From a virus, in the IMG/VR virus record IMGVR_UViG_3300048584_000095, positions 1 through 25,780 of that record: DNA of 25,780 nt; one strand, written 5' to 3'. A program made the translations under genes and the position numbers. The notes below the pieces were generated by a model. The model was not told the DNA's origin and ran no database searches. It worked only from the letters and a program-made list of their open reading frames with translations. Shown one piece after another: positions 5,981 through 25,642 of this stretch. How positions within the stretch are numbered: position 1 is the stretch's first letter; every line of letters starts with the position of its first letter.

Positions 5981-6312
5981 TGCCGGGAACTCCAGAAACC
6001 TCTAACCCCAAAGAACAGATCGCAGATGCGGTTCTGGATCGATTCGTGTCGCAACACCCGGAACTAAGGCAAGCAACTATCGTGACCGAAATTCCTCCGA
6101 GCCTGCGATGGGCAGGAATCATCATGGGAGCAGTCATGACCGCCGCGGCAACCGCGGGCTTGTTCTGGCTCGTGGCAACCGTGAGCGAAATGCAGGTGAC
6201 GCTTGCCCGCATGGATGAACGTATCGGTAACTGGATTTCGACACAGGATCAGCGATACGCTGACCTCGAAGCCAGGATTGAAAAACTCGAAACGAAAATG
6301 GAGAAACGATAA
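5980..6312 (+). CDS. Single-pass membrane protein with C-terminal coiled coil (lysis region)
   Basis: This 110-residue protein has a hydrophilic N-terminus of about 40 residues, one predicted membrane helix at roughly residues 44-66 (WAGIIMGAVMTAAATAGLF and following), and a charged heptad-like helix to the end (DLEARIEKLETKMEKR). This resembles an inner-membrane spanin or another lysis-region membrane protein, but no partner outer-membrane lipoprotein was found. The ATG at 5980 overlaps the previous stop as TGATG; a GTG at 5977, one codon earlier and in frame, is equally well placed behind the GGAG at 5964-5967. Its place before the endolysin and holin-like genes supports a role in lysis or virion entry. 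Confidence 0.6.
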   Translation: MPGTPETSNPKEQIADAVLDRFVSQHPELRQATIVTEIPPSLRWAGIIMGAVMTAAATAGLFWLVATVSEMQVTLARMDERIGNWISTQDQRYADLEARIEKLETKMEKR

Positions 6313-6536
6313 TGCCCAATCCGGCACAGCAGCGGCTCGATGCAATGGCGAAGAAAAAGGGATTTCCCAACTACGCCGCCATGAAGGCGTGGAATGAGAA
6401 ATATCGTGCGCCTGTCACCAATTCTGGCACCGCTCCCAAGAAAAATTTCTTTCAGCGGGTTATGTCAAGGATACACCCCATGAATGTAGCCGCTGAAAAG
6501 GTTGATCGAGCCGTGAAAAAGTCTCGCAGACAATGA
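6312..6536 (+). CDS. Small basic protein of unknown function
   Basis: This is a 74-residue, strongly basic protein with many Lys/Arg, especially at the C-terminus (VKKSRRQ), and no membrane helix. The start overlaps the preceding stop as TAATG and the stop overlaps the endolysin start (6533), so it is translated within the lysis cassette. I do not recognise a family. The segment from residue 6 (QQRLDAMAKKKGFPNYAAMKAW) looks helical and may bind nucleic acid or an acidic partner. Confidence 0.6.
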   Translation: MPNPAQQRLDAMAKKKGFPNYAAMKAWNEKYRAPVTNSGTAPKKNFFQRVMSRIHPMNVAAEKVDRAVKKSRRQ

Positions 6537-7159
6537 CGACCGCAGACCGCATCGCCGCCGCACTCAGGGCAATCGCGCCGGAAGGCAAGCTGCTTGCAGA
6601 GGACGTGCCGCTACTCGACCAGATCGCAGCGAATTGGGATCGGCGCACCCAGCCGACCCCCGACATTGTCGATCCGCCGTGGCTGGTTCATGCACGTTCG
6701 AAACTCGGCGAGCGCGAAATCAAGGGACCGAAGCACAATTCGTGGATCGCAAAGGGATGGGCTCGGCTCGGCGCAACCTGGTTCAATGACGATGAAACGC
6801 CGTGGTGCGGATACTTCATCGCCGATGCGCTCGATTCTGCGGGTTTACCCTATCCCAAGAATTTCCCCGCCGCTGCATCCTTCCGAACCTATGGGGTTGC
6901 CGTGCCGGCACAGCTTGGCGCGATTGCGACAATGCGCCGACCGGGCGGAAATCACGTTTTCATCATTGTCGGTGAAACGCCGGACGGGCTCGCCTACAAG
7001 GCGCTCGGCGGCAATCAGTCTGATGGTGTGACGATCATGGACGTACCGAAGGATCAGGTCGATGCGATCCGTTGGCCTCCCGGCGTTCCACTGGTGCCGC
7101 GTTCGCAGATACAGCTTCCGGTAATGCCGAGAGGCACCATTCTCAGGAACATGTCATGA
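6533..7159 (+). CDS. Endolysin, TIGR02594/NlpC-P60-like cysteine peptidase
   Basis: This 208-residue protein most likely cleaves peptidoglycan peptide cross-links at the end of infection. Residues 50-160 match the TIGR02594 group: an N-terminal WLVHARSKLGEREIKGPKHN block, then DDETPWCGYF with the probable nucleophile C92, and GGNHVFIIVGE with the probable catalytic H141. The first ~45 residues form a helical segment that could help localisation or peptidoglycan binding. No signal peptide is seen, so export would depend on the holin-like product downstream. The ATG overlaps the stop of the preceding gene, and its own stop overlaps the next ATG as ATGA (7156-7159). Confidence 0.85.
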   Translation: MTTADRIAAALRAIAPEGKLLAEDVPLLDQIAANWDRRTQPTPDIVDPPWLVHARSKLGEREIKGPKHNSWIAKGWARLGATWFNDDETPWCGYFIADALDSAGLPYPKNFPAAASFRTYGVAVPAQLGAIATMRRPGGNHVFIIVGETPDGLAYKALGGNQSDGVTIMDVPKDQVDAIRWPPGVPLVPRSQIQLPVMPRGTILRNMS

Positions 7160-7383
7160 AGGCGCCACAGGAAGCCATGATTGCCTACCTGTCAACGCTC
7201 GTAGCCATCGTGGCGTTGTCGGGCTTCGGTGCGCTGGCAGTAGCGTTCGCACCGAAAGAGCGGCTGGATGAAGTCCTCGCCGCTCTCGGCTTCCTCTCGG
7301 CTGGCGTCACCGGCCTTGTTGGCGTTATCGGTACATTCCGGCCCAAAGGCCGCGACGATCCGCCCCATGATGGAGAAATTTGA
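7156..7383 (+). CDS. Holin-like two-helix membrane protein
   Basis: This 75-residue protein has two hydrophobic helices, at about residues 9-30 (IAYLSTLVAIVALSGFGALAV) and 40-60 (VLAALGFLSAGVTGLVGVIG), a short charged loop (APKERLDE) and a charged C-terminal tail. The size and topology are those of class II holins, which permeabilise the inner membrane to release or activate the endolysin. It directly follows the endolysin with an ATGA overlap. The MKAPQE start is chosen because of that overlap; the same frame extends upstream into the endolysin gene. Family membership rests on topology and context. Confidence 0.7.
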   Translation: MKAPQEAMIAYLSTLVAIVALSGFGALAVAFAPKERLDEVLAALGFLSAGVTGLVGVIGTFRPKGRDDPPHDGEI

Positions 7384-7568
7384 TGTTCAAGAAACTGATC
7401 AAGAAGCTGGTGCGCAAGGTCGTTAAAAGCCCGATTGCTGCCGAAGTGATCGCCGAGAAAGCCGATGATGCGATCATGGACGTGCTCGACGCAAAAACAG
7501 GCGGGCTTGCCAGCAAGGCCGAAGAAGTAGTCAAGCGCCGGAAGCGGGACCGAGAGATTGATCAGTAA
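7383..7568 (+). CDS. Small basic protein at the end of the lysis operon
   Basis: This 61-residue protein starts with an amphipathic, Lys-rich helix (MFKKLIKKLVRKVVK) and ends with another basic stretch (VKRRKRDREIDQ). The N-terminal helix could lie on the membrane. The ATG overlaps the preceding stop as TGATG. The stop (TAA, 7566-7568) lies inside the last codons of the first leftward gene, so the two operons converge with a 7-base overlap. I recognise no family. Confidence 0.6.
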   Translation: MFKKLIKKLVRKVVKSPIAAEVIAEKADDAIMDVLDAKTGGLASKAEEVVKRRKRDREIDQ

Positions 7569-7672
7569 TCCCAACGATCCGGCTCGTCCTCATCATCCCA
7601 ACGGGTTGCCCACAGGCACCCGCAGACGAAGCCGACACAGAACACGCAAATTCCGATTGCGGTGGCAAACAT
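7562..7672 (-). CDS. Tiny single-pass membrane protein
   Basis: This is a 36-residue product: one hydrophobic helix (FATAIGICVFCVGFVCGCLW) with four cysteines, followed by a short, very acidic tail (RWDDEDEPDRWDY). The ATG at 7672 follows GGGAG at good spacing and begins 2 bases after the preceding stop (7674). A longer in-frame ORF starting further upstream would overlap the previous gene and is not preferred. It is the last gene of the leftward cluster and converges on the lysis genes. The function is unknown; a membrane regulator of lysis or a membrane-targeted effector are only guesses. Confidence 0.55.
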   Translation of the reverse strand: MFATAIGICVFCVGFVCGCLWATRWDDEDEPDRWDY

Positions 7673-7673
7673 T

Positions 7674-7781
7674 TCAATTCTCCCAATCTCGTTCTCGGGT
7701 GTTATCCCTACGGGTTTCGTAAATTTCGGACAGGATGCCAAGAGCAATTCCGCATCCGATCATGATGATTGCAAGGGTCAC
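7674..7781 (-). CDS. Tiny single-pass membrane protein
   Basis: This is a 35-residue product with one hydrophobic helix (LAIIMIGCGIALGILSEIY) and a charged tail (ETRRDNTRERDWEN). It starts at GTG 7781, which overlaps the TGA of the RuvC-like gene as GTGA and has AAGGA eight bases upstream. Together with the next gene it forms a pair of miniature membrane proteins. It was recognised by start, ribosome site and overlap only; the function is unknown. Confidence 0.5.
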   Translation of the reverse strand: MTLAIIMIGCGIALGILSEIYETRRDNTRERDWEN

Positions 7782-8251
7782 AGGAATTTCCTTCCATAAT
7801 GTGCCAGAAGCAAAGCTTCGGCCCTGCCATCATCTTTGACCCTCGCCACGGCCGCAGCAGTCGCCGGATAAAGGGTGCGGCAGACTTCGCGGCTCGCACC
7901 CTTCCCGCTGTTCAACAACCCTAGCTTGGCCTTCCACGTGCTCGGCGTGACGAAATGCACCGGACAGTCGCAACTCGTCACCACCAATCCGTGCGCAAAG
8001 CCGAGCGATCTTCCGAATGAAAACATGGACGTAACGCCTTGACCGGGACGTGCTGCCACGTCCTCGATCACCACCATGTCAGGGCTTGCCCATCGCAACG
8101 CGTCCGACCAGACATTGACCCAATCGCTCCATGCAGGCTTTTCCTTCCCGCGCAGCTTGATTACTGGCACGTCAAAAAACTGCGCACTGCCGTCCTGATG
8201 CAGCAAGGCCAGTGCGCCGGTTTTGCCAGGATCAATGCCAGCTACGAGCAT
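7778..8251 (-). CDS. RuvC-like Holliday junction resolvase
   Basis: This 157-residue protein has the RNase H-fold layout of RuvC-type crossover junction endonucleases: GIDPGKTGALAL with D7 at the N-terminus, MVVIEDV with E63, and a C-terminal KDDGRAEALLLA with D140/D141 and E145. These acidic residues would bind two Mg2+ ions. In phages such enzymes resolve branched replication intermediates before packaging. The ATG overlaps the end of the LuxR-type gene upstream. The length is close to that of bacterial RuvC (about 170). Its place at the downstream end of the replication block fits. Confidence 0.85.
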   Translation of the reverse strand: MLVAGIDPGKTGALALLHQDGSAQFFDVPVIKLRGKEKPAWSDWVNVWSDALRWASPDMVVIEDVAARPGQGVTSMFSFGRSLGFAHGLVVTSCDCPVHFVTPSTWKAKLGLLNSGKGASREVCRTLYPATAAAVARVKDDGRAEALLLAHYGRKFL

Positions 8252-11340: not shown

Positions 11341-12069
11341 TTACCAAGCGTCTGCGGTTTCCGCAGGCTTGTCCATGCCTTCGCTGCTCGGAGCGTTGGC
11401 AAGAGGATCATAGTCGGAGTACCCGGCGAAGCCGCCGAACACCTGCCCGTTGTCGGGACCGCCGCCTCCTGCAAGCCGCTCACCCTTGCGGATATAGAGG
11501 CAGTTCTGGAGGTAGGCCGTCACGCCGTCCTTGGCATCCAGCGTCTTGCGCCGGAATGCCTTGAAGGCAATCGCCGGGACCACATAGGCGCCGGGATAGA
11601 ACAAGTCCTTTCCTGCCGATGCGCGGGCGTGTTCCTCGTTCGGAATGTCGATGATCTTGCCAGCTTCGAGCCGAGCAAGTTCCACGTCGAATTGCGACGA
11701 GGCAGTGAGGATGCCAGCGTAGGGCTTGTAGAGTTCCATACGCTTCTCGGCCTTCTCGCGGATCTTGAAAGCTTCGTCGGCGCTCTTGCCCTGTGCCTTC
11801 AATTCCGCAGCCTGCATCGCACGCTTGCCGCTGGTCTCGCCGCTCATAGCCGCAAGGTAATAGTCGGTCGGATTGGTGAAGGTGCCGAGTTCACTCTTGA
11901 TCGCCTGAACCATGATTTCCACGATCTTGTCGAAATCTTCCTTCTCGATCCCGAACGTGCCGGAAAACTTCGGCGTGGCATTCGTGCCGGGAGGGGCCGA
12001 CTTCGCAGTGATCGACGAGTAGAGAAGCCGAGCGGGCTTGATGAGCGTGTAGCGGATTGTTTCAGCCAT
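11341..12069 (-). CDS. DUF2815 protein, probable single-stranded DNA-binding protein
   Basis: This 242-residue protein belongs by its sequence and context to DUF2815. Recognisable segments are KFSGTFGIEK, YAGILTASSQFDVELARLE, DLFYPGAYVVPAIAFKAF and VTAYLQNCLYIRKGERL, and it ends in an acidic/Pro tail (residues 220-242), a feature of many SSB proteins. Family members are regarded as OB-fold-like ssDNA-binding proteins of phage replication and recombination. The ATG at 12069 has AAGGA upstream. It lies between the DUF2800 nuclease and the DNA polymerase, as in many other phages. Confidence 0.85.
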   Translation of the reverse strand: MAETIRYTLIKPARLLYSSITAKSAPPGTNATPKFSGTFGIEKEDFDKIVEIMVQAIKSELGTFTNPTDYYLAAMSGETSGKRAMQAAELKAQGKSADEAFKIREKAEKRMELYKPYAGILTASSQFDVELARLEAGKIIDIPNEEHARASAGKDLFYPGAYVVPAIAFKAFRRKTLDAKDGVTAYLQNCLYIRKGERLAGGGGPDNGQVFGGFAGYSDYDPLANAPSSEGMDKPAETADAW

Positions 12070-12124: not shown

Positions 12125-13339
12125 TCAAAACCCCATCTGTTCGGGAGTCTGTGCGAAATTCTCGAATACGGTTGCATTGCCCTTCGGCTTTGCTTCGGGG
12201 CGAGGATCGGACAGCGGCGCAACCGAAAGGCCATTGGCATCGGGCTTGTAGCCGTATTCCAGAGCCAGTTCCTTGCCAAGAGTAGACAGCTTCTCGACTG
12301 CCGCAGGGCTCTTGATCTTCTTCGGCTCGTAAGCCTTGTCCCCGAACGCCGCGATCAGGGCAGCTTGCGCACCAGGCTTCCACACCCGGTTTGTGCGCTT
12401 CTCGACCAGCTTTGCGCTGTTGATCTTCGCGCCGCCGATCAAGCGAGCATGAACCGTGCTTTCCAGCGCGTTCATGAAGCGGCGGGCTTGCTCCCGCATG
12501 GCGTAGTAGCGATCCAGTTCCTCGTTCGAAAGCATGGCGATAAATTCCTCGTCTGCGGCAGCGTATTCCTCGAAGGCGCGCTGCATCTTGGGGCAATCCA
12601 GAAGCACCGGGCAAAACTGGCAATGCTCGCCCGGTATGAAATCTTCGTCGGTATAAGGCCGCTCGACCATGAGAGCGTTCATGCGCGGCAAAAGCTGCTC
12701 ATGCCCCCAATCGATCACGAAACCGAGCGTAACCTCCCAAATGTCGGGCTCGTCGAATTTGCCATAGAAATTCGGCTGCACGATCCCGAGCCGCACCGGC
12801 AGATCGCGGGGACCACCACGCAGCCGATGATCCGACATGACCATCAGGAAAGCGTAATAGAGAAGCTGCTTGTTGCCAGCAGCAGCAACGCCGATGCCTT
12901 CCCCATTCTTGTAGTCGAGAAGGTCAAGGCCATCGGTCAGCGACCAGAAACCGAAATCGACTGTGCCGCGCAGCAGCGGATGCAGATCGGGCAAGTGGAT
13001 CGTTTCTTCGATCAGCAGATAGCCGCGCTCTTTCCGGCGATCCAGCACGCGCATACAGGCATTGAAATAGACCTGGATTGCGTCAAGGTCGATGCCATCC
13101 GGCCAGCCGACCATGTAGCCATCGACTTCCTCGCCGAGAAATTCGAACGGCTCGATAGCTTCCGCAACCGATCGTGCGCAGACCTCATGCGCAGCGGTGC
13201 CTAGCTTGGCGTACTCGCTTTCGACGTGCTCGAACGTGTCGGTTTCAAGCTGGTGGCGGTGCATCAGGAATGAGCCTGTGCAAGCCATGAAGCGATGCGC
13301 TCCAGATCCACCGAGTGGGGAATGCTCCAGGTGGATCAT
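12125..13339 (-). CDS. DUF2800 protein, Cas4/AddB-like Fe-S PD-(D/E)XK nuclease
   Basis: This 404-residue protein has a PD-(D/E)XK core: GTVDFGF (D128) followed by LLDYKNGEG (D142, K144). Four cysteines suit a 4Fe-4S cluster: C54 in AHEVCARS, and C240, C243 and C249 in EHCQFCPVLLDC, the same split arrangement as in Cas4 and AddB. The N-terminal HSPLGGSGAHRFMACTGS is typical of DUF2800. It probably acts as an exonuclease in recombination or end-processing with the neighbouring DUF2815 protein. The ATG overlaps the stop of the tiny upstream gene as ATGA. Confidence 0.9.
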   Translation of the reverse strand: MIHLEHSPLGGSGAHRFMACTGSFLMHRHQLETDTFEHVESEYAKLGTAAHEVCARSVAEAIEPFEFLGEEVDGYMVGWPDGIDLDAIQVYFNACMRVLDRRKERGYLLIEETIHLPDLHPLLRGTVDFGFWSLTDGLDLLDYKNGEGIGVAAAGNKQLLYYAFLMVMSDHRLRGGPRDLPVRLGIVQPNFYGKFDEPDIWEVTLGFVIDWGHEQLLPRMNALMVERPYTDEDFIPGEHCQFCPVLLDCPKMQRAFEEYAAADEEFIAMLSNEELDRYYAMREQARRFMNALESTVHARLIGGAKINSAKLVEKRTNRVWKPGAQAALIAAFGDKAYEPKKIKSPAAVEKLSTLGKELALEYGYKPDANGLSVAPLSDPRPEAKPKGNATVFENFAQTPEQMGF

Positions 13340-14335: not shown

Positions 14336-15964
14336 TCATTCTCCGTGTCTGTGGTCTAGGACCTTGTGGATCGTATTCAGCTTTTCGAGAGCCCGAACCA
14401 ATATCTTTTCAGAGATTGATCCAGGTGCAACGAAAATCTCCGCAGTGACTTCTTCACCTTGGCCAAATCGATCTAGTCGGGAAACCGCTTGCTCGTTCTG
14501 CGCAGGCACCCAATCAGGTTCGGCCAAATAGCAGCGGGAGCAAACTTTCTGCAATCCATCAAGGCCAGTTCCCGCTGCCTGAATATTGCCAATGAATACC
14601 CGGACATTATCACGTCCTATGAAATCTTCAACGGCTTTCTGTCTGGCTTGCGGCGATTTCCGTCCATCGACACGCACCGTACCAAACTTGGACAATTCTT
14701 CCTCGAAAATATCCAGCACCTCCAGATGCCAGCCGAAGATCACCAGCTTTTCTTCCGAGCCTTCGAGAAAGTCGCGGGCGTAGTCGGCGATCTGCGGCGC
14801 CAGCGCGATCCCCATCAGTCTGCGCGCTTCGGCGATGTGTCCGAGAATTTCGAAATCCTTGGTAGTCTGGATATCCTCGATTTCGATATCCAGCAGACCT
14901 TCGGCAGCGAGCGCCTGATTGACGGCACCGTCAGCCTCGCAGCGAACGATAGCATAGCGCGGCGGCTTCATGAATTTCAGAACGTCCTTCTTCTCATGCC
15001 TCGCCATGACATTCACCCTCAGTCGATTTTGCAATTCCTGCTCCAGTGACGTGCTTTCCAGCTTGAACCGCTTCCCCTCGATCGTGTGAAGGTTGGCTTG
15101 CCGGTTGTAGCGGTCCTTGAATTTTTCCCATGAGAGGAAATCGATGGCCTCCCAATCGAAGAACCGGAATAGCACATAAGCTTCGCTCGGCCGGTTCAAG
15201 AGCAAAGTTCCGGTGAGTGCCAGATGCTCGCGGCAGTAAAATGCAATCGCCTTCATTTTCAGGTCGCCGTGGACATACTCACCCTTGTTGTTGCCGATGA
15301 TCGCCCGCGTGGTCAGCGCGTCGATATTCTTCATCTTGTGCGCCTCGTCGCAAATCAGTACGTCCCATTGATATTTGGAAATTGCGCGAATGATCGCCGG
15401 ATTTCTCGCAGCGTCATAGCTGATGATCTGGTAATTCGCGGTCGGATGAATGCCGTCCTTGACCTTGAGCATGGTCGAGACTTTCAATCCGGGGATCGTA
15501 GACCATTCCCGGATGCGTTCCTCCCATTGCAGCCGCACCGATGCCGGAACGATCACCAGAACGCGCGTGGCTTCTCGCTCGTTGCAATAGGCAATGCTGG
15601 TCGGGGTTTTGCCAAGTCCAGGTTGGTCGCCATTGATCCCACCGCCGCGCTCTAACAAGAAATCTAATGTAGCCTTTTGATAATCCCACAACTCGCGCCC
15701 TGGCGGCAACTTATGCGTGCCTTTACCATCTAAAGCACGTGAGGCTTCGATCTTGCGCTTATAGGCACCGAGCACCGGTAGGCTATCATCGGCAAGGTCT
15801 GCAAGTGCATAAGGATTACCGAGCGCAAACAGCACAGCTTCCTCTCGACTGCTCGCAGACGTACTAAACGAAAGTCCTCGATAGGCCATCAGAGATGCTA
15901 TGATTTCTTTTTTCGCCGCAGGCACTCGCAATATGAAATTTTGTCCATTTTCTTCAACTTTCAC
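14336..15964 (-). CDS. SNF2/SF2-type DEAH helicase
   Basis: This 542-residue protein has the helicase motifs of superfamily 2 SNF2 proteins: motif I GDQPGLGKTPTS (about 112-123), motif Ia VIVPASVRLQWEE, motif II ICDEAHKMKN (DEAH at 206-209), motif III LALTGTLLLNRP, and the C-terminal motifs GTGLDGLQ and QNEQAVSRLDRFGQ. Such phage proteins are thought to remodel replication or recombination intermediates. The start is GTG 15964, which overlaps the HNH stop as GTGA with AAGGA eight bases upstream; an alternative ATG at 16003 would overlap the HNH gene by 43 bases. The first ~300 coding bases look more AT-rich than the rest. Confidence 0.9.
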   Translation of the reverse strand: MKVEENGQNFILRVPAAKKEIIASLMAYRGLSFSTSASSREEAVLFALGNPYALADLADDSLPVLGAYKRKIEASRALDGKGTHKLPPGRELWDYQKATLDFLLERGGGINGDQPGLGKTPTSIAYCNEREATRVLVIVPASVRLQWEERIREWSTIPGLKVSTMLKVKDGIHPTANYQIISYDAARNPAIIRAISKYQWDVLICDEAHKMKNIDALTTRAIIGNNKGEYVHGDLKMKAIAFYCREHLALTGTLLLNRPSEAYVLFRFFDWEAIDFLSWEKFKDRYNRQANLHTIEGKRFKLESTSLEQELQNRLRVNVMARHEKKDVLKFMKPPRYAIVRCEADGAVNQALAAEGLLDIEIEDIQTTKDFEILGHIAEARRLMGIALAPQIADYARDFLEGSEEKLVIFGWHLEVLDIFEEELSKFGTVRVDGRKSPQARQKAVEDFIGRDNVRVFIGNIQAAGTGLDGLQKVCSRCYLAEPDWVPAQNEQAVSRLDRFGQGEEVTAEIFVAPGSISEKILVRALEKLNTIHKVLDHRHGE

Positions 15965-16458
15965 AGCGAAAATCCTTGTTTTGCTGCAATTCGAGCAATC
16001 CATAAAAGGAAATCTTTTTCCGTTTTCGCTCTCTTAGCGTAATTACAATCGGAACAACATGCTACACCATTGCCTCGAATATATCCAAGGTTGTTATCCC
16101 GCCGATCAATGCCTTTTGCCGGAGTAACTCCGCAATAATGGCAAGCTGCTTCATAAAATTCACGAAATTCATTTTCGGAAAATTCAAAGGCAAGAGATTT
16201 ACGGTCAGCACTTGATTGGTACGCATGAAAACGTCGGCGAAATGCAATGCTTTCCGGCGATTTTCTCCATGGCGCACATCGGAAACACCGAGAAACTTCA
16301 CCTCGGTTGAGACGTACGGATGCGACGAAATAGACGTTACCGCAATCGCACATACACTCGACTGATCGCGGTTTATTCGATCCTCCGGGATGTACCCGCA
16401 CCACTGAGAGTCGACCAAAACGCTGCCCTTCGTGGAAGTGTATGCGTACACCTTTCAC
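15961..16458 (-). CDS. HNH homing-type endonuclease
   Basis: This is a 165-residue protein. An N-terminal zinc-ribbon-like part has CMCDCG and CFRC; the C-terminal half has an HNH/beta-beta-alpha-metal core: CHYCG, GIDRRDNNLGYIRGNGVACC and CSDCNYAKRA, where the paired CxxC motifs bind structural zinc and the Asp/Asn residues form the active site. The layout matches free-standing phage homing endonucleases. It starts at GTG 16458, overlapping the previous TGA as GTGA, and ends in GTGA with the helicase. The DNA appears more AT-rich than the polymerase region, and both borders share CTGTGAAAG followed by KTG, consistent with later insertion between two coupled genes. Confidence 0.85.
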   Translation of the reverse strand: MKGVRIHFHEGQRFGRLSVVRVHPGGSNKPRSVECMCDCGNVYFVASVRLNRGEVSRCFRCAPWRKSPESIAFRRRFHAYQSSADRKSLAFEFSENEFREFYEAACHYCGVTPAKGIDRRDNNLGYIRGNGVACCSDCNYAKRAKTEKDFLLWIARIAAKQGFSL

Positions 16459-16664
16459 AGATCAAACTCCAATGCTTCGGTCTGACCCATGATCGGCAGC
16501 GGACCTACCCAGCCTGCGACGGTGCCGACAATCGGTTCCCTGAGATTGTTAAGCCACACATCATTGCCGCGCAGCCAGAAGCGAACGACTGTCGGCACAT
16601 CGACGCCGTGCATGTAGCAGACGTAATGTCCTGTCTCAGTCGGATTGCCTGTCTGGATTTTCAC
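16455..16664 (-). CDS. Small hypothetical protein ending in EFDL
   Basis: This is a 69-residue protein with many Trp, Gly and Val residues (GHYVCYMHGVDVPTVVRFWL, then DVWLNNLREPIVG and AGWVGPLP), probably a small beta-rich fold. It starts at GTG 16664 inside the junction cassette 16661-16676 and ends with Glu-Phe-Asp-Leu encoded by the next cassette. No family is assigned with confidence; it resembles short phage proteins of unknown function with a WxGPLP-type ending. Confidence 0.6.
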   Translation of the reverse strand: MKIQTGNPTETGHYVCYMHGVDVPTVVRFWLRGNDVWLNNLREPIVGTVAGWVGPLPIMGQTEALEFDL

Positions 16665-17152
16665 AGATCATACTCCATTTTCGGGCGAAGAATAAAACAA
16701 GCGATATGTCTGCCAGTTCCTTTACCGGGTGTTCCGTCCTCAATAGCTAACCATTTTACGTCGCCAAGATTTCGTACCTCTGCATGGTCGCCTAAAATCT
16801 CTTGCAAAATCATCAGAACCCACTTGTCTATGGGAAAAACCAACACAGTTAATTTTCCTTTGCGCCGTTCCTCGATCGCTTTGCGTACCCATGCTGTCAC
16901 GCCTTTTTTACGTCCGTTATGAATCACGGAACCAAATGGCGGATTAACGTAATTTGATTTTCCCCACTCGCAAGAAAGACCATCAAAATCATCAGGTTTC
17001 GGAAAAGGGCAAGGATCAAAATCAAAGTGAAATTCAGCGTCCAATTTAGCATACATTTCAGGTGGAGTAAGCCAGTAATGCTTGCCGTCCGAACCGTTAC
17101 CAACATGAAATTTATTGTTGGTCGGTTCAATCTTTCCCGGCTTTCCCTTCAC
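16661..17152 (-). CDS. Phage DNA N6-adenine methyltransferase (Dam-like)
   Basis: This 163-residue protein matches the short phage DNA adenine methyltransferase family (PF05869 type): YWLTPPEMYAKLDAEFHFDF followed by DPCPFPKPDDFDGL, and the catalytic motif IV NPPFG. It would transfer a methyl group from S-adenosylmethionine to adenine in DNA. No restriction partner is adjacent, so protection from host restriction or control of gene expression are likelier roles. The target is unknown; GATC is a reasonable first guess. It starts at GTG 17152 within a junction cassette. The gene looks more AT-rich than its neighbours. Confidence 0.88.
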   Translation of the reverse strand: MKGKPGKIEPTNNKFHVGNGSDGKHYWLTPPEMYAKLDAEFHFDFDPCPFPKPDDFDGLSCEWGKSNYVNPPFGSVIHNGRKKGVTAWVRKAIEERRKGKLTVLVFPIDKWVLMILQEILGDHAEVRNLGDVKWLAIEDGTPGKGTGRHIACFILRPKMEYDL

Positions 17153-17478
17153 AGATCATACTCCTGAACCATGCCGACAGGCTTAGGCAATGCTTGCCCA
17201 AGACGCACCGCAGCACGCATCTGATCATCGAGCCGGATCATGATCGCTTCATAGGCTTCCTGCCCCCACTCAGCCAGCATCGCGCCGATTTCTTCGAGCG
17301 TCCAGCCGCCGAACGATGCCGCTGCAATGATCCTGGCCTTGTCAAGCTGCGCATCCGTGTAGCGCCTGTGACCGCCTTCGGATCTTGCGACCTCGCCGAG
17401 CAATCCCTTCTCCTCCCAAAAATGGATACCTCGTGCCGTGGTGCATCCGGCCCGCATCATTTCCTCAATGCTGTGCAT
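17149..17478 (-). CDS. MerR-family transcriptional regulator
   Basis: This 109-residue protein opens with a MerR-type winged HTH: HSIEEMMRAGCTTARGIHFW, EEKGLLGEVARSEGGHRRYT and DAQLDKARIIAAASFGGWTL, that is, the usual recognition region, R-Y-Y-like IHFWEEKGLL and the HRRY wing. A dimerisation helix follows; no metal-binding cysteine cluster is seen at the C-terminus. It probably regulates promoters with unusually long spacers. The start at 17478 (MHSIEE) has AAGGG upstream and overlaps the previous gene by 14 bases; longer in-frame starts would overlap it further. It ends in Glu-Tyr-Asp-Leu, encoded by the cassette at 17149-17164. Confidence 0.85.
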   Translation of the reverse strand: MHSIEEMMRAGCTTARGIHFWEEKGLLGEVARSEGGHRRYTDAQLDKARIIAAASFGGWTLEEIGAMLAEWGQEAYEAIMIRLDDQMRAAVRLGQALPKPVGMVQEYDL

Positions 17479-17890
17479 CGAATTCCCTTTCGATCTTCTC
17501 AAGCGGCGCGTCTCGCCAATAGTGAATGCGTTCGACAATGAAATACTGCCGTAGCGTAGGAAACTCAAGCCGCGGCAAACCGGCGTAATCGAGTTCGAAT
17601 TCCAGCCGCTTCGCCGACTTCGGGACAGGTCGCCAATGCGCCGTATGACCTACCACGATTGCAAGAGCCGGCCACATCGGCGCCAGTTCTTCGGCAGTGT
17701 AGAACGGGCGCACCTGCCAAAGCGGAAGCCATGCGAGCGCGGCCGCAGCGTTCGGATCGCGGGGATTGTTCTCGGCCCACAGCTTCACGCTCTCTTTCCA
17801 ATCAGCGATAAGCCCCGGTTGGTTCCCTTTCGCCCGCATGGCCTTGATAATTGCCCATGTCTCACCCTTCCAGAATTCCCGCCCGCTCAT
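17465..17890 (-). CDS. Hypothetical protein downstream of the primase-helicase
   Basis: This 141-residue protein has several Trp residues and no obvious catalytic motif (MSGREFWKGETWAIIKAM, then WLPLWQVRPFYTAEELAPMW and AIVVGHTAHW). The start at 17890 has GAGGA five to six bases upstream; in-frame ATGs at 17905 and 17929 are possible. The junction with the previous gene is a variant of the coupling cassette, but its GTG is out of frame here and opens a six-codon ORF that ends at an ATGA over the ATG at 17905. The function is unknown. Confidence 0.6.
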   Translation of the reverse strand: MSGREFWKGETWAIIKAMRAKGNQPGLIADWKESVKLWAENNPRDPNAAAALAWLPLWQVRPFYTAEELAPMWPALAIVVGHTAHWRPVPKSAKRLEFELDYAGLPRLEFPTLRQYFIVERIHYWRDAPLEKIEREFDAQH

Positions 17891-17918
17891 GCTCGTTCCT
17901 CTCATGAAAGCTGCGCGC

Positions 17919-19802
17919 TCACAAATCATACTCCAGCTTCGGAATTACCCATTTGTTGCGATCAGGACGGAGAAAAACGAGGCTTGAATTCTTGTCGAGT
18001 TGCTTGCGCACCATAACGGGATCAATGCCATGTGCGCCCGCGATTTCGTGGCTTAGAACGCTTGTACTGGTTTCGCCGCCGAGCGTTGCCAGCATCCTTG
18101 TCACTTCCTCCACGCTTGCCCAAGCGTAGCGACTGCCAGCCTCTTTCTTGTCGCCTGCCAGATCGCCGAGCGAAGCGCACCGCTCCAGCACGATCGATGA
18201 TGCGACCTCCTTCACGGCAAAGTAGCTGATTTCATCCGTTACGTCAGCGTCCTTCTGTTTGCGCACTCGCAATTCAGTTCCGCCCTGTTTCAATTTGGTA
18301 CTGATTACCGCGTCCATATTGGCGTAAAAGGCGCTGGAACCGCGAGCGCCTTTCGACTGATCCTTGCCGGTGTGATGCACCGCGAGCACGAAACATTGAT
18401 AGTGCCGTGCCAAGCTTTCCATGAAACTCGTTATCAGGGTGGCGTCCTTGGCCGAATTCTCATCCATGCCGGTGATGAGCCGCGTCAAGGTGTCGATCAC
18501 GATCAGCGAAGGCTTTGCCCCCAATTCGTCAAGGTCGTCTTTCACACCCTGCCAGCCATCAGTATCGGTATAGACTGGAACGCGGTCCTTAATCAAAAAT
18601 CGGTGCCCTGCCTTATCGGAAATCCCCTGCCACTCCATCCAGGCAGGCCAACGCTTCTTGGCCGTCGAGACCGGCCCTTCCCCTGCGAAAAACAGCACGT
18701 CATGTTTCACAGGCGGGCCGTTCCATTGGCCGGGGATGCCATGCGCAAGGCACAAAGCCATGTCGAGCGCGAGGAACGACTTGTAGCTGCCGCTCTCCCC
18801 GTAAATCATCCCGATACCTTGCGCGGGGAGCATATTCGGGATGAGCCAAACAGGGTCACTCACACCATCAGCATAATCGTGCAGAAACTTGATACGGTCG
18901 CGGGATCGGTCGGCTGGTTTCGGTGTCTCGATTTCCTGCCCTGCGAAAGCTGCAAAAGCGTCGGTGTTTGCTTGAAAACCTTTCACGCCGCCGCTGGTGT
19001 CCTCACCATATTCGGCTGCGTTGCGAATAATCTGCTCCAACTCCCATTCATCCCACATCGGAGCGCAATGGGGATTCCAATGCTCGTCCATCAGGTCAAA
19101 GCACATTCCGGGCGAAATGGCTTTGTCGAGGATTGATGCCGCGACCTGAAAAGCTGTGTTGTTTCCGCCCTTCCCCTCAACAGACACGCGCCCGCTGGCA
19201 ACGTACCCTTTCAACAGATCCACCGCCCACGAGACATTGCGCGGCTGGTCCGCATCGGGGTTTTTCTCAAGCCCGAGGGTGTCCGTTTTCTTGCGCTCTG
19301 GCACGATCGCCGACACACAGGCAGGCAAGGGCAGGATTTCACCGCCGAGAGCCTGATAGATGCCGGCTGACGTTCTGGAACCAGGCAACAACACATAGCC
19401 GCCCGACACAATCTTGCCGTCCCGCTTGATTCCGCCGCGAGTGTCGATGCCATCGGCAATCCGGCTGGCCGTGCTCGGCCCCTCGCCACGGAAATAGACG
19501 TGCAGACCGCCCCGAGGGGTGCGGACCTGAAAGGCTTTGCCGACTGCCTCACGAATGACAGGATCGCGCTCCAGCAGCGAATGCCACCAGTCCAGACCGT
19601 TCGGATCAACGTCGATCACGAAAAGGTCACTAAGGCCCGTCGCTACAGCCCAATTGCAGCCAGGTAACAGACGCGACCATTCGGCGAGCGTTGCCGGATC
19701 ATCGGTCGCAATGTGCCAACCTTCCTTAGTGGCAGGAACCTTGTCACCTGCCACGATAGGAAAAAGCTTGCAGCCTTTGAATACGTCCGGTAAATCTTGC
19801 AC
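17919..19802 (-). CDS. Bifunctional primase-polymerase / RepA-like AAA helicase
   Basis: This 627-residue protein joins two replication activities. Residues 1-170 are an archaeo-eukaryotic-type prim-pol domain: VIDVD with catalytic D64 and D66, GGLHVYF with H101, and GGYVLLPGS. Residues ~320-520 are a RecA-fold ATPase of the RepA/AAA_25 type: Walker A GESGSYKS (335-342), Walker B LIVID (433-437), and VHHTGKDQSKGARGSSAFY as the following motif. It would prime and unwind phage DNA. The C-terminus carries a small helical, HTH-like region and ends with Glu-Tyr-Asp-Leu. The start is GTG 19802 behind AGGACAGGG. It is preceded by a 78-base gap containing a terminator that points the other way. Confidence 0.93.
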   Translation of the reverse strand: MQDLPDVFKGCKLFPIVAGDKVPATKEGWHIATDDPATLAEWSRLLPGCNWAVATGLSDLFVIDVDPNGLDWWHSLLERDPVIREAVGKAFQVRTPRGGLHVYFRGEGPSTASRIADGIDTRGGIKRDGKIVSGGYVLLPGSRTSAGIYQALGGEILPLPACVSAIVPERKKTDTLGLEKNPDADQPRNVSWAVDLLKGYVASGRVSVEGKGGNNTAFQVAASILDKAISPGMCFDLMDEHWNPHCAPMWDEWELEQIIRNAAEYGEDTSGGVKGFQANTDAFAAFAGQEIETPKPADRSRDRIKFLHDYADGVSDPVWLIPNMLPAQGIGMIYGESGSYKSFLALDMALCLAHGIPGQWNGPPVKHDVLFFAGEGPVSTAKKRWPAWMEWQGISDKAGHRFLIKDRVPVYTDTDGWQGVKDDLDELGAKPSLIVIDTLTRLITGMDENSAKDATLITSFMESLARHYQCFVLAVHHTGKDQSKGARGSSAFYANMDAVISTKLKQGGTELRVRKQKDADVTDEISYFAVKEVASSIVLERCASLGDLAGDKKEAGSRYAWASVEEVTRMLATLGGETSTSVLSHEIAGAHGIDPVMVRKQLDKNSSLVFLRPDRNKWVIPKLEYDL

Positions 19803-19880: not shown

Positions 19881-20399
19881 TTACAGATCGAATTGAGGTT
19901 CGAACGCTTCACCCGCCAACGCAAGACATAAACCTGCGTCAAGCATCATGGCAAGTGAATACCAATCGCCGGGGTGCGACGTGGCTTTGGGAAACGGGCG
20001 CCGCAGACAGTCGCTGCCGACCAGCCGACAAAATCTTGTAGTGAAATTGCGGCTTGGATACTCGGTATTGTGCCAGTGGATCAGGGACCAGCTTCCACCG
20101 TGCAGATTGTCGATATCGACCATCGCCCCCACACCCTTGAGGGAAAAGCGCAGATCGATACCAGCCCCGCCGAATCCAGCCACGGCAGGGCTCTCGTGAC
20201 GCTCCACAGTCGCACCATGCCGCTCCACAATCGCACAGATCGCTTTGGCGATATATTCCCGATCAGACTTGCGGCCGGCGTTGCTCTTGTTGAGTGTGTC
20301 GCGGTCCACAATCATGTGGACCTTGTTGCCTCGCATGATTGCAAGACTCATCCGATCCTCACCGTTGGCGAGGTCGATATTCAATCCGGTGATTGTCAT
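19881..20399 (-). CDS. Hypothetical phage protein
   Basis: This is a 172-residue protein. The N-terminal half (MTITGLNIDLANGEDRMSLA, KVHMIVDRDTLNKSN) looks like a small alpha/beta fold. The C-terminal half has the well-ordered string GAMVDIDNLHGGSWSLIHWH and then RPFPKATSHPGDWYSL, reminiscent of conserved phage proteins of unknown function. It ends in Gln-Phe-Asp-Leu through a weak version of the junction cassette (stop TAA rather than TGA). The ATG at 20399 has GGGGAG upstream and lies 15 bases after the preceding stop. Confidence 0.65.
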   Translation of the reverse strand: MTITGLNIDLANGEDRMSLAIMRGNKVHMIVDRDTLNKSNAGRKSDREYIAKAICAIVERHGATVERHESPAVAGFGGAGIDLRFSLKGVGAMVDIDNLHGGSWSLIHWHNTEYPSRNFTTRFCRLVGSDCLRRPFPKATSHPGDWYSLAMMLDAGLCLALAGEAFEPQFDL

Positions 20400-20414: not shown

Positions 20415-20780
20415 TCACAGATCATAAGTAAGCCAGTGGTCGGAATCGAACGCCGCTCGCAGCTTGTCAGCAATGTCACCAATCGGCGCACCGTTCGGAT
20501 AGGTGACGAATTCGAAAAGATACTCTTTGCCGACTTCCTCGACTGCCTCCAGGATATCCAGAGCATCGCAGACACGTTCGGCAAAGCGTGCAGCCTCACC
20601 TTCACTCAGCAGCGCCCGAACAACGGCTGGCATTCTGTCCGCTATATCCTCCAGCGCCGCAGATCGAATTTGCAAATCCTCCACGTTCTCCAGCATGTCC
20701 AGCAATTCCGGAGCCCATTCACAACCGGCGATCCTTTGGCTTTCCAGCCATTCCCGAGCGTTCAAATGTAAGTGGGGCAT
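20415..20780 (-). CDS. Hypothetical acidic helical protein
   Basis: This 121-residue, acidic, mostly helical protein (ELLDMLENVEDLQIRSAALE, EAARFAERVCDALDILEAVE) has no catalytic motif. Strong negative charge and small size are common among phage proteins that inhibit host enzymes, but that is only a possibility. The ATG overlaps the preceding stop as TAATG. The last codons give Tyr-Asp-Leu from TATGATCTGTGA, without the GGAG part of the cassette; the next gene uses its own GGGGAG. Confidence 0.6.
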   Translation of the reverse strand: MPHLHLNAREWLESQRIAGCEWAPELLDMLENVEDLQIRSAALEDIADRMPAVVRALLSEGEAARFAERVCDALDILEAVEEVGKEYLFEFVTYPNGAPIGDIADKLRAAFDSDHWLTYDL

Positions 20781-22152: not shown

Positions 22153-22156
22153 TTTT

Positions 22157-22180
22157 CGCTCCATCAAAAGCGGTTGAAAC
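22157..22180 (-). promoter_or_regulatory. Repeated gene leader, copy 1
   Basis: Read on the - strand: GTTTCAACCGCTTTTGATGGAGCG, ending just before the ATG at 22152. It shares TTCAACCGCTTT..ATGGAGC with the copies at 23622-23645 and, in part, 24236-24252. It includes the Shine-Dalgarno GGAG and an upstream conserved part that translation alone does not explain. Confidence 0.6.
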
Positions 22181-22183
22181 TAA

Positions 22184-22197
22184 ACCCTACGTAGGGT
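22184..22197. repeat. Perfect 14-bp palindrome ACCCTACGTAGGGT
   Basis: It begins at the last base of the stop codon of the upstream gene and precedes leader copy 1. No T run follows, so an operator site or RNA end-structure is more likely than a terminator. Confidence 0.75.
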
Positions 22198-22772
22198 CAC
22201 AAATCCAAGGACGCAAGCGGATTTGCGTAGATTGTCACCTTGCGGCTTTTCCGACCGTCATAATGCCACCAGCTGGCGAATTCAGGCGACTTGCGGCAAT
22301 GCGCCAGAGCGCGGCGAATTTTCACAGTCTCGAATTGCCGGATATTGGCAGCAATCGGCAACATCAGCCGAACCGCCAGCCAGTGATAGCCAACCGGCGA
22401 ACCGTCACCAGGCAAGGCGCCTTTGATCCAATCAATCAGCAGTGCGATTGCGTCCGCTTCCCCATTGGCTGCATCCATGACAGCTAAAGCCACATTGCGC
22501 GGCGCTTGGCCTGCCACAGCGTCTCCGAGGGGCTCAATTTGATCCAATGCCCGACCGGCGAACCTGCCCAACTGCGTCAGTAATCCGGGGCTCTCGATAA
22601 GGGCGCACAAGTCCATGACTGTCAGGGGATTGCCATGAGCAAAGACTTCTCGAATTCGTGCCAGATCCAGGTTACATTCATCGACCAGCACCAGCACACC
22701 ATCGCGCTGCATCCACTTGGCCTTTGCGTGCGAGATTCTGTATTTGTCGCAGAATTCCAAAAGTGTCAGCAT
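22197..22772 (-). CDS. Hypothetical protein with HTH-like N-terminus
   Basis: This is a 191-residue protein. Residues 1-35 (LLEFCDKYRISHAKAKWMQR, DGVLVLVDE) look like a small excisionase/MerR-like helix-turn-helix. The rest is helical (LCALIESPGLLTQLGRFAGR, MDAANGEADAIALLIDWIKG) and ends with IRRALAHCRKSPEFASWWHY and then a lysine/arginine segment. A DNA-binding or replication-related role is possible but not proven. The ATG overlaps the previous gene by 7 bases. It ends in Leu-Asp-Leu with a divergent form of the junction sequence. Confidence 0.55.
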   Translation of the reverse strand: MLTLLEFCDKYRISHAKAKWMQRDGVLVLVDECNLDLARIREVFAHGNPLTVMDLCALIESPGLLTQLGRFAGRALDQIEPLGDAVAGQAPRNVALAVMDAANGEADAIALLIDWIKGALPGDGSPVGYHWLAVRLMLPIAANIRQFETVKIRRALAHCRKSPEFASWWHYDGRKSRKVTIYANPLASLDL

Positions 22773-23621: not shown

Positions 23622-23645
23622 TTTGCTCCATTGAAAGCGGTTGAA
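23622..23645 (-). promoter_or_regulatory. Repeated gene leader, copy 2
   Basis: Read on the - strand: TTCAACCGCTTTCAATGGAGC followed by AAA, ending 4 bases before the ATG at 23617. It is the best match to the consensus and contains the GGAG ribosome site. Confidence 0.65.
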
Positions 23646-24235: not shown

Positions 24236-24252
24236 TTTGCTCCATTGAAAGC
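24236..24252 (-). promoter_or_regulatory. Repeated gene leader, copy 3 (shorter)
   Basis: Read on the - strand: GCTTTCAATGGAGCAAA, five bases before the ATG at 24231. It shares 17 bases with copy 2 but lacks the upstream TTCAACC part. Confidence 0.6.
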
Positions 24253-25247: not shown

Positions 25248-25642
25248 GCGTTAAGTGAGAATTCCTCTTGCCAGCGATTCGCGCGGATTGCAACGCCTAA
25301 ATTGCGAGTAGCAGCAAATGATCGACCTTGCATCGATATAGTTAACGCATGGTAAGGTTAAGGCATTGCAATACTACGCAAGGTGAGATATGGTTAAGAA
25401 AGCGTGAAAAGGGACCCGGTTAATTGAGGGGTTGACGACCGGGGGATACCTTCGAGCTCGGGGCCGGATGGCCGGGTCTAGGCGAGATACGCGACACAAC
25501 CGATTTTCACCGTCCGACTATATTATGACCGTCCGACTATATTATGACCGTCCGACTATATTATGACCATCCAAACCAATTTCCAGTTTACAAACCATTC
25601 TAACCCTATTAAGGCAACCTCCCCACTCAAGGAGTAATCGCA
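25235..25642. other. Divergent non-coding control region (408 bases)
   Basis: It separates the leftward small-gene block from the rightward gene at 25643. It contains the start repeat 25226-25247 at its left edge, TTAAGGCA half-sites at 25358-25365 and 25609-25616, and three 19-bp direct repeats (25511-25567). I saw no convincing -35/-10 pair with correct spacing for the rightward gene, although TATATT in each direct repeat could serve as a -10. No gene was found. Confidence 0.6.
25511..25567 (+). repeat. Three tandem 19-bp direct repeats (iteron/operator-like)
   Basis: CGTCCGACTATATTATGAC occurs three times without interruption, at 25511-25529, 25530-25548 and 25549-25567, followed by a partial copy CATCC. 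The exact identity and spacing of nearly two helical turns point to binding by a protein array: a replication initiator (iteron) or a transcription regulator. It ends 75 bases before the start of the next gene. Confidence 0.95.

Follow-up and report, generated by a model that had tools for sequence, protein, structure and literature searches.

Terminal address peptides, start-associated repeats and chains of genes linked by ATGA are kinds of phage element that are already known. The capsid targeting sequence (CTS) of T4 is an address, a short terminal peptide common to unrelated proteins of one phage (PMC9026906). In cluster K mycobacteriophages, start-associated sequences (SAS) place a repeated short sequence with a ribosome site before unrelated genes of the non-structural region (PMC3203893), and in the lambdoid nin region accessory genes are chained by overlapping stop and start codons (ATGA), with no shared C-terminal peptide described there (PMC8022706). 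The sliding-clamp-binding motif (QLxLF or QLxLxF) is a short linear motif of many unrelated DNA-metabolism proteins, often located in flexible tails (PMC11139829). The C-terminal tail of the single-stranded DNA-binding protein (SSB; DDDIPF-COOH) and tails of the T7 Gp2.5 type combine an acidic-hydrophobic end with a free carboxylate. Short linear motifs common to unrelated proteins usually reveal a hub, such as the sliding clamp, SSB, a protease adaptor or a capsid scaffold. Here we describe a three-residue C-terminal tag, resembling each of these systems in part, in a 25,780-nt stretch of viral DNA that is the entire IMG/VR record IMGVR_UViG_3300048584_000095 (the window) and in its relatives. 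The tag differs from SAS, which are DNA- or RNA-level elements at gene starts, in that the selected object is a peptide at gene ends, and from the nin chain in that the peptide persists where genes do not overlap.

The sequence-only reading of the window had reported four copies of a 16-bp sequence, GGAGTATGATCTGTGA, that serves as ribosome site, start and stop and gives four unrelated proteins the same end. All four copies are present on the minus strand with up to three mismatches allowed (Table 1), where dinucleotide shuffles lead one to expect 0.14; none of 100 shuffles reached four. Read in phase, every copy supplies the last codons of an open reading frame (Glu-Phe/Tyr-Asp-Leu); it also contains a GTG, whose overlap with the stop is 4 nt. 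The protein names hold as well: a primase-helicase (Prim-Pol + AAA_25), a MerR regulator (MerR_1), a Dam-like methyltransferase (slightly below the Pfam cut-off; PHROG 111 DNA methyltransferase at 7e-16) and a small protein. The proposed use of the motif as the start of the next gene stands for three copies and fails at the end of the primase gene, where the GTG opens a frame of only six codons (VSAQLS-stop) and the following gene most likely starts at ATG 17890. Here the tail is retained although the copy starts no gene. Three weaker tails, at 20415 (TYDL), 19881 (QFDL) and 22197 (LDL), are real gene ends with neither a ribosome site within the tail nor a start overlap, and together with the six-codon frame they gave an early hint that the peptide is what matters.

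Relatives were collected by a pattern scan of IMG/VR and by searches in which the primase and the small protein were the queries, yielding about 30 related contigs that were read whole; the clade set comprises 30 contigs. Genes were called with a purpose-made dynamic-programming caller based on hexamers and ribosome sites, and families were clustered by mutual coverage. The sample therefore consists of metagenomic contigs and partial genomes with home-made gene calls and clusters, and the related contigs are not independent. In this set 158 of 1192 clade proteins end in [YF]DL, compared with 0.42 expected from the internal frequency. Proteins with a [Y/F/L/H/W]-Asp-Leu end number 199 and fall into 41 strict non-homologous families, an approximate figure because single linkage may split or merge families (looser clustering gives 36 families ending DL). 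The motif sits at the very end of the chain, and followed by 1, 2, 3, 4 or 5 residues it occurs in 0, 1, 0, 1 and 0 proteins. A count made independently of the gene caller over 770 kb found [YF]DL-stop 185 times and permuted tripeptides 3–9 times. Enrichment at gene ends thus extends beyond the window to the whole genome and the whole clade.

Several families are tagged in every member: the primase (23/23 full-length members), the MerR-like protein (24/24), family 10 (18/18) and family 14 (15/15), and among the smaller ones families 28 and 31 (9/9 each) and family 33 (8/8). None of the nine family 28 relatives has a gene overlap. Family 0, to which the small protein belongs, is tagged in 35 of its 36 clade members, and the remaining one ends EYDF. 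The consensus is [YFLH]DL. Glu occupies position −4 in 58%, and non-overlapping families show no constraint there; the tag is often preceded by Glu or Gln, and the stretch before it is rich in Pro, Gln, Lys and Met, often with Ala as well. An HNH/NUMOD-like segment is fused to the MerR-like protein in G031 (7001-7744, minus strand; family 66, also in G007 and G012), and the end of the fusion is still tagged.

The tag is confined to one phage clade. Every contig with a primase identity of at least 52% is tagged, and none is at 37% or below. Among 930 genes of loci outside the clade, tags occur only at the site of the seed pattern by which the contig had been retrieved; the exception is formed by two contigs from metagenome-assembled genomes (MAGs), which are clade members. 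The two further relatives found in MAGs carry the labels Erythrobacter and Chthoniobacterales, and the host is uncertain because these labels disagree and the contigs may be mis-binned. Cultured phages include no close relative, and plasmids gave no DNA match. Exact 16-mer matches outside the clade were considered as further cases and rejected, being mostly single and due to chance or unrelated. Mimicry of host proteins was also discarded, since 12 of the 13 E[YF]DL stops in the two MAGs with relatives fall in phage contigs (1 outside).

Selection acts on the amino acids, not on the DNA. In 35 genes of 11 families with no possible start overlap, the Asp and Leu codons (positions −2 and −1) show 126 synonymous pair differences (47 + 79) and 0 non-synonymous ones, whereas differences in codons −4 to −14 of the same genes are mostly non-synonymous; pairs within families are not independent, though the contrast is complete. 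The sequence-only reading had left a choice between exchange of gene cassettes through a shared border, selection on the DNA element and selection on the peptide tail, and this comparison strongly supports the last. Family 10 has four invariant columns, of which Asp and Leu make up two; both stay terminal even after extensions of ~60 residues. In family 0, D68 is invariant in a 36-sequence alignment and the tag is terminal whatever the length of the linker before it, which varies widely. Individual members of families 15, 36, 39 and 44 have acquired a tag at the chain end that is absent from their homologs. The AlphaFold model of family 0 has no secondary structure in the last ~11 residues (predicted local distance difference test, pLDDT, ~61), and that of family 10 has a pLDDT of 47 at the last residue; a fold search with family 10 returned no significant match.

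Selection on the DNA element, in turn, is not needed. There are 155 four-base overlaps without a tag, tagged genes lack an overlap (96) as often as they have one of 4 nt (95), and wobble positions vary. The sequence is not kept regardless of frame, as it would be in a DNA border or SAS-like element: 82 of 93 16-mers coincide in frame with the end of a called gene, seven of the other 11 were inspected and end uncalled frames with the same tail, and the variation is synonymous. The 16-bp repeat results from tail codons lying on a GGAG ribosome site, which also supplies Glu, and on the overlapping start of the next gene (GGAG / TAT / GAT / CTG / TGA); no further cause is needed. TATGAT was considered as a promoter −10 box and set aside, as no consistent −35 was seen by eye.

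That the 16-mer is primarily a cassette-exchange or translational-coupling element, with the tail as a passive by-product, is largely refuted as a sole cause, and we give it very little credence. Gene content between the primase and the SNF2 helicase does turn over among relatives, and 16-mers are slightly more alike within genomes (2.34 differences) than between them (2.70; P = 0.014). The Asp codon of the tag (GAT or GAC) also varies less within a genome than expected from codon usage or from label shuffling, a result that holds after thinning related contigs; all seven tag Asp codons of the window are GAT, and nearby Asp codons in clade contigs show no such uniformity. Against this stand the frequency of tagged genes without overlap and the complete synonymous bias. 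Other variable tail sites show weak within-genome uniformity at the Leu third base only (P = 0.03), and the 20-nt flanks show no likeness (0.33 within and 0.31 between genomes). With so small an excess likeness and such unlike flanks, DNA copying was rejected as the source of identical 16-mers. As to exchange through the border, successor diversity is 0.71 after tagged and 0.47 after untagged genes, which is not a significant difference (P = 0.21; 7 vs 24 families). True border repeats exist in another phage, L208 (2869-3951, minus strand), where four gene ends share AATAGCGATGAAGCGTGAGGAATTG, so that the proteins end alike in NSDEA and often also begin alike with MKREEL. This is a DNA-level border repeat as the cassette model predicts, and the studied clade shows no such pattern. 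In L240 (5559-7136, minus strand), an ES end is shared by four small adjacent genes and by one farther away; most of these ends are encoded by (A)AGGAGTCC-stop, and the probable cause is that the tail codons contain the next gene's ribosome site.

Several 16-mers that are not at called gene ends sit where a gene for a Dcm-type cytosine methyltransferase ends; the Dcm frame itself has its stop within the motif (GGA GTA TGA). The +1 frame of this gene is open for ~180–440 codons and ends YDL in all 10 contigs inspected (two near-identical), using different synonymous codons and all three stops. Two of these genes are listed in Table 1, and the matching ones are in G003, G004, G010, G017, G018, G031, L179 and L180. 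In 4 of the 10 contigs the Dcm frame itself also ends FDL or YDL a few codons further on. Synonymous-codon shuffles of the Dcm gene keep the +1 frame so open in 0–5 of 1000 cases (G005, G010, G017, G018 and the outgroup G023), a result that leaves out G003, G004 and L179, in which the +1 stop precedes the Dcm stop. We infer from these reading frames that the +1 frame is an overprinted gene with a tagged product.

A terminase search retrieved relatives of G023, and the resulting sister set comprises G023, G035, G036 and G038 (L171-L173, L287-L290, L292). This sister lineage is without the [Y/F/L/H]DL tag. Orthologs of tagged proteins end in Phe instead, several with acidic-x-x-Phe tails: the primase ends in VDVSIF, EGTEF or QGMEF, family 14 in TDPSIF, IDLEQF or RPEDF, Dcm in DESVF, DESIF or LMEKF, and the Dcm +1 frame in FDPSIF, FDPNMF or FDPGMF (not in G035). 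The ssDNA-binding protein of the lineage ends VDTSQF or VDAYQF. Proteins ending in Phe amount to 25 of 187 in the sister lineage and 3 of 166 in more distant contigs (P = 4e-5), and the former proportion is weakly above that of untagged clade proteins (63/845; P = 0.013). The sister lineage may possibly use a second tail dialect on some of the same proteins. Its tails (VDVSIF; SSB VDTSQF) look closer to the SSB tail than the Leu tag does. The SSB tail is found on SSB itself and has a terminal Phe or Trp with acidic residues; in the tagged clade the SSB is untagged, with a separate tail of its own (Table 1), and it is unrelated proteins that end in Leu.

The C-terminal short linear motif [Tyr/Phe/Leu/His]-Asp-Leu-COOH is probably a docking tag that many unrelated proteins present to one shared putative receptor. 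In such a mechanism a flexible tail with a free carboxylate end would be bound by a common receptor, phage- or host-encoded, which would gather or route the primase-helicase, regulators, DNA methyltransferases, small accessory proteins and the product of a gene that lies a few genes upstream of that for the terminase large subunit. Receptor and tails may have changed together in the sister lineage, giving the other dialect there. The tag follows the PDZ class II ligand pattern (hydrophobic-x-hydrophobic-COOH), with Y/F/L at −3 and a terminal Leu; His at −3 also occurs. Four points weigh against a docking tag of this kind. A look for receptor candidates in 12 clade contigs gave no PDZ_6 and no sliding-clamp gene, and no receptor was found. 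The tagged proteins have diverse functions and point to no single obvious pathway. Selection on the peptide does not account for the uniformity of the Asp wobble within genomes. Finally, the dialect idea was formed after the data had been seen and rests on four contigs.

Other readers of a terminal tripeptide can be imagined. A host protease or adaptor might recognise it and set the lifetime of phage proteins; the strict C-terminal position and the need for a free end fit C-degrons, and most tagged proteins are small and non-virion. E[YF]DL ends are also nearly absent from the two MAGs outside phage contigs (the single match above), which is weak evidence, as chance predicts ~3 matches by an estimate from pattern degeneracy. 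A degron or stability tag is nevertheless unlikely: the primase-helicase and the near-terminase protein are tagged in every member, which would seem costly, and a -DL end is unlike the Leu-Ala-Ala or similar non-polar end of LAA-type (ssrA-like) degrons.

We think it improbable that the tag directs proteins into the head for delivery, as for the T4 internal proteins. A short terminal peptide on unrelated proteins is the principle of the T4 CTS (PMC9026906), delivered methyltransferases, nucleases and regulators would benefit an incoming phage, and one tagged family, 31, is encoded in the head gene region. The T4 CTS, however, is N-terminal, spans ~10 residues, occurs on few internal proteins and is removed by the prohead protease, whereas here three strictly C-terminal residues occur on 41 families. 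A primase-helicase and a MerR-like regulator would also be odd head cargo. Binding of the tail to the host sliding clamp is less probable still. Many of the tagged proteins work on DNA, [E/Q]-[Y/F/L]-D-L is similar to the QLDLF consensus over its first four residues, and C-terminal clamp motifs exist, the C-terminal carboxylate of Pol IV being bound (PMC11139829). The clamp motif has Gln at position 1 followed by an aliphatic residue, L/M at 4 and F/L at 5 or 6, but the tag is strictly C-terminal, without a Phe or other fifth hydrophobic residue after Leu, and its counterpart of the defining Gln is mostly Glu or unconstrained, a change of Gln to Glu that greatly lowers affinity (PMC11139829). 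The phage DNA polymerase, moreover, is untagged.

Table 1. Coordinates of tagged genes, their neighbours and the Dcm-type genes (positions refer to the window unless a contig is named)
Feature	Position	Strand	C-terminal end and remarks
Small protein, 69 residues, family 0	16455..16664	-	LEFDL; tail codons and stop 16455-16469; 16-mer 16455-16470
Dam-like DNA N6-methyltransferase	16661..17152	-	MEYDL; 16-mer 16661-16676; homologs outside clade untagged
MerR-like regulator	17149..17475 (start 17457 or 17475)	-	QEYDL; 16-mer 17149-17164
Primase-helicase (Prim-Pol + AAA_25)	17919..19802	-	LEYDL; 16-mer 17919-17934
172-residue protein, family 44	19881..20399	-	QFDL; stop TAA; no start overlap; relatives end FDM, ATA, PSA, ATK
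121-residue protein, family 28	20415..20780	-	TYDL; next gene begins 15 nt on with own ribosome site
191-residue helix-turn-helix-like protein, family 10	22197..22772	-	SLDL; no overlap
Family 1 protein	17465..17890	-	Untagged; adjoins primase; in 28/30 clade contigs
HNH/endonuclease VII-like gene	15961..16458	-	GFSL, untagged; started by GTG of 16-mer 16455
Gp2.5-like ssDNA-binding protein	11341..12069	-	Untagged; own acidic-aromatic end ADAW (relatives DDDVPF, DEEIPF, others)
Dcm gene with +1 frame	G005 6870-8049	-	+1 frame ends YDL
Dcm gene with +1 frame	G006 6111-7290	+	+1 frame ends YDL

Further elements were observed in the window. The exonuclease that adjoins the ssDNA-binding protein (12125-13339, minus strand) has its own recurrent end, E-x-x-G-F/W, in many relatives (EQMGF, EEQGF, EDAGW). 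A hairpin, CCCCGGAA...TTCCGGGG, follows the family 44 stop (19881), and a palindrome, CCCTACGTAGGG (22185-22196), lies directly 3' of the family 10 stop, where relatives have variants around TACGTA / GTTACGTAAC in the same place. GCTTTCAATGGAGCAAA occurs on the minus strand just ahead of three gene starts (24236-24252, 23622-23638 and 22155-22171, the third copy with 3 changes); these 3 matches, against 0.13 expected, resemble a start-associated sequence. Upstream of the leftward operon, positions 25509-25572 hold 3.4 tandem copies of a 19-bp unit, ACCGTCCGACTATATTATG, that is iteron- or operator-like.

Searches of an open-access literature library, outside which most subscription journals lie, turned up no three-residue C-terminal tag on ~41 families of a small tailed phage and nothing relevant on a C-terminal motif shared among phage proteins. 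More speculatively than a docking tag as such, the clade may possess a phage-wide C-terminal address code, a tentative idea in which one receptor would read the tag on ~10–20% of proteins, mostly non-virion and including the overlapping-frame product, with lineages differing in dialect (PhiDL vs DxSIF). To our knowledge, no small tailed phage has been described with a sorting code that spans its proteome in this way. The three-residue tag on 41 unrelated families in one phage clade carries an exceptionally clear selection signal, and it makes the search for a hub directly testable. It also illustrates that what looks like a DNA repeat at gene junctions can in reality be a protein motif. The tag is a marker for dozens of uncharacterised small phage proteins and can bring hidden genes to light, as with the overlapping Dcm frame. 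If the address code is real, it would hold together the proteins with which the phage replicates and takes over the cell, or separate them from the proteins of competing phages.

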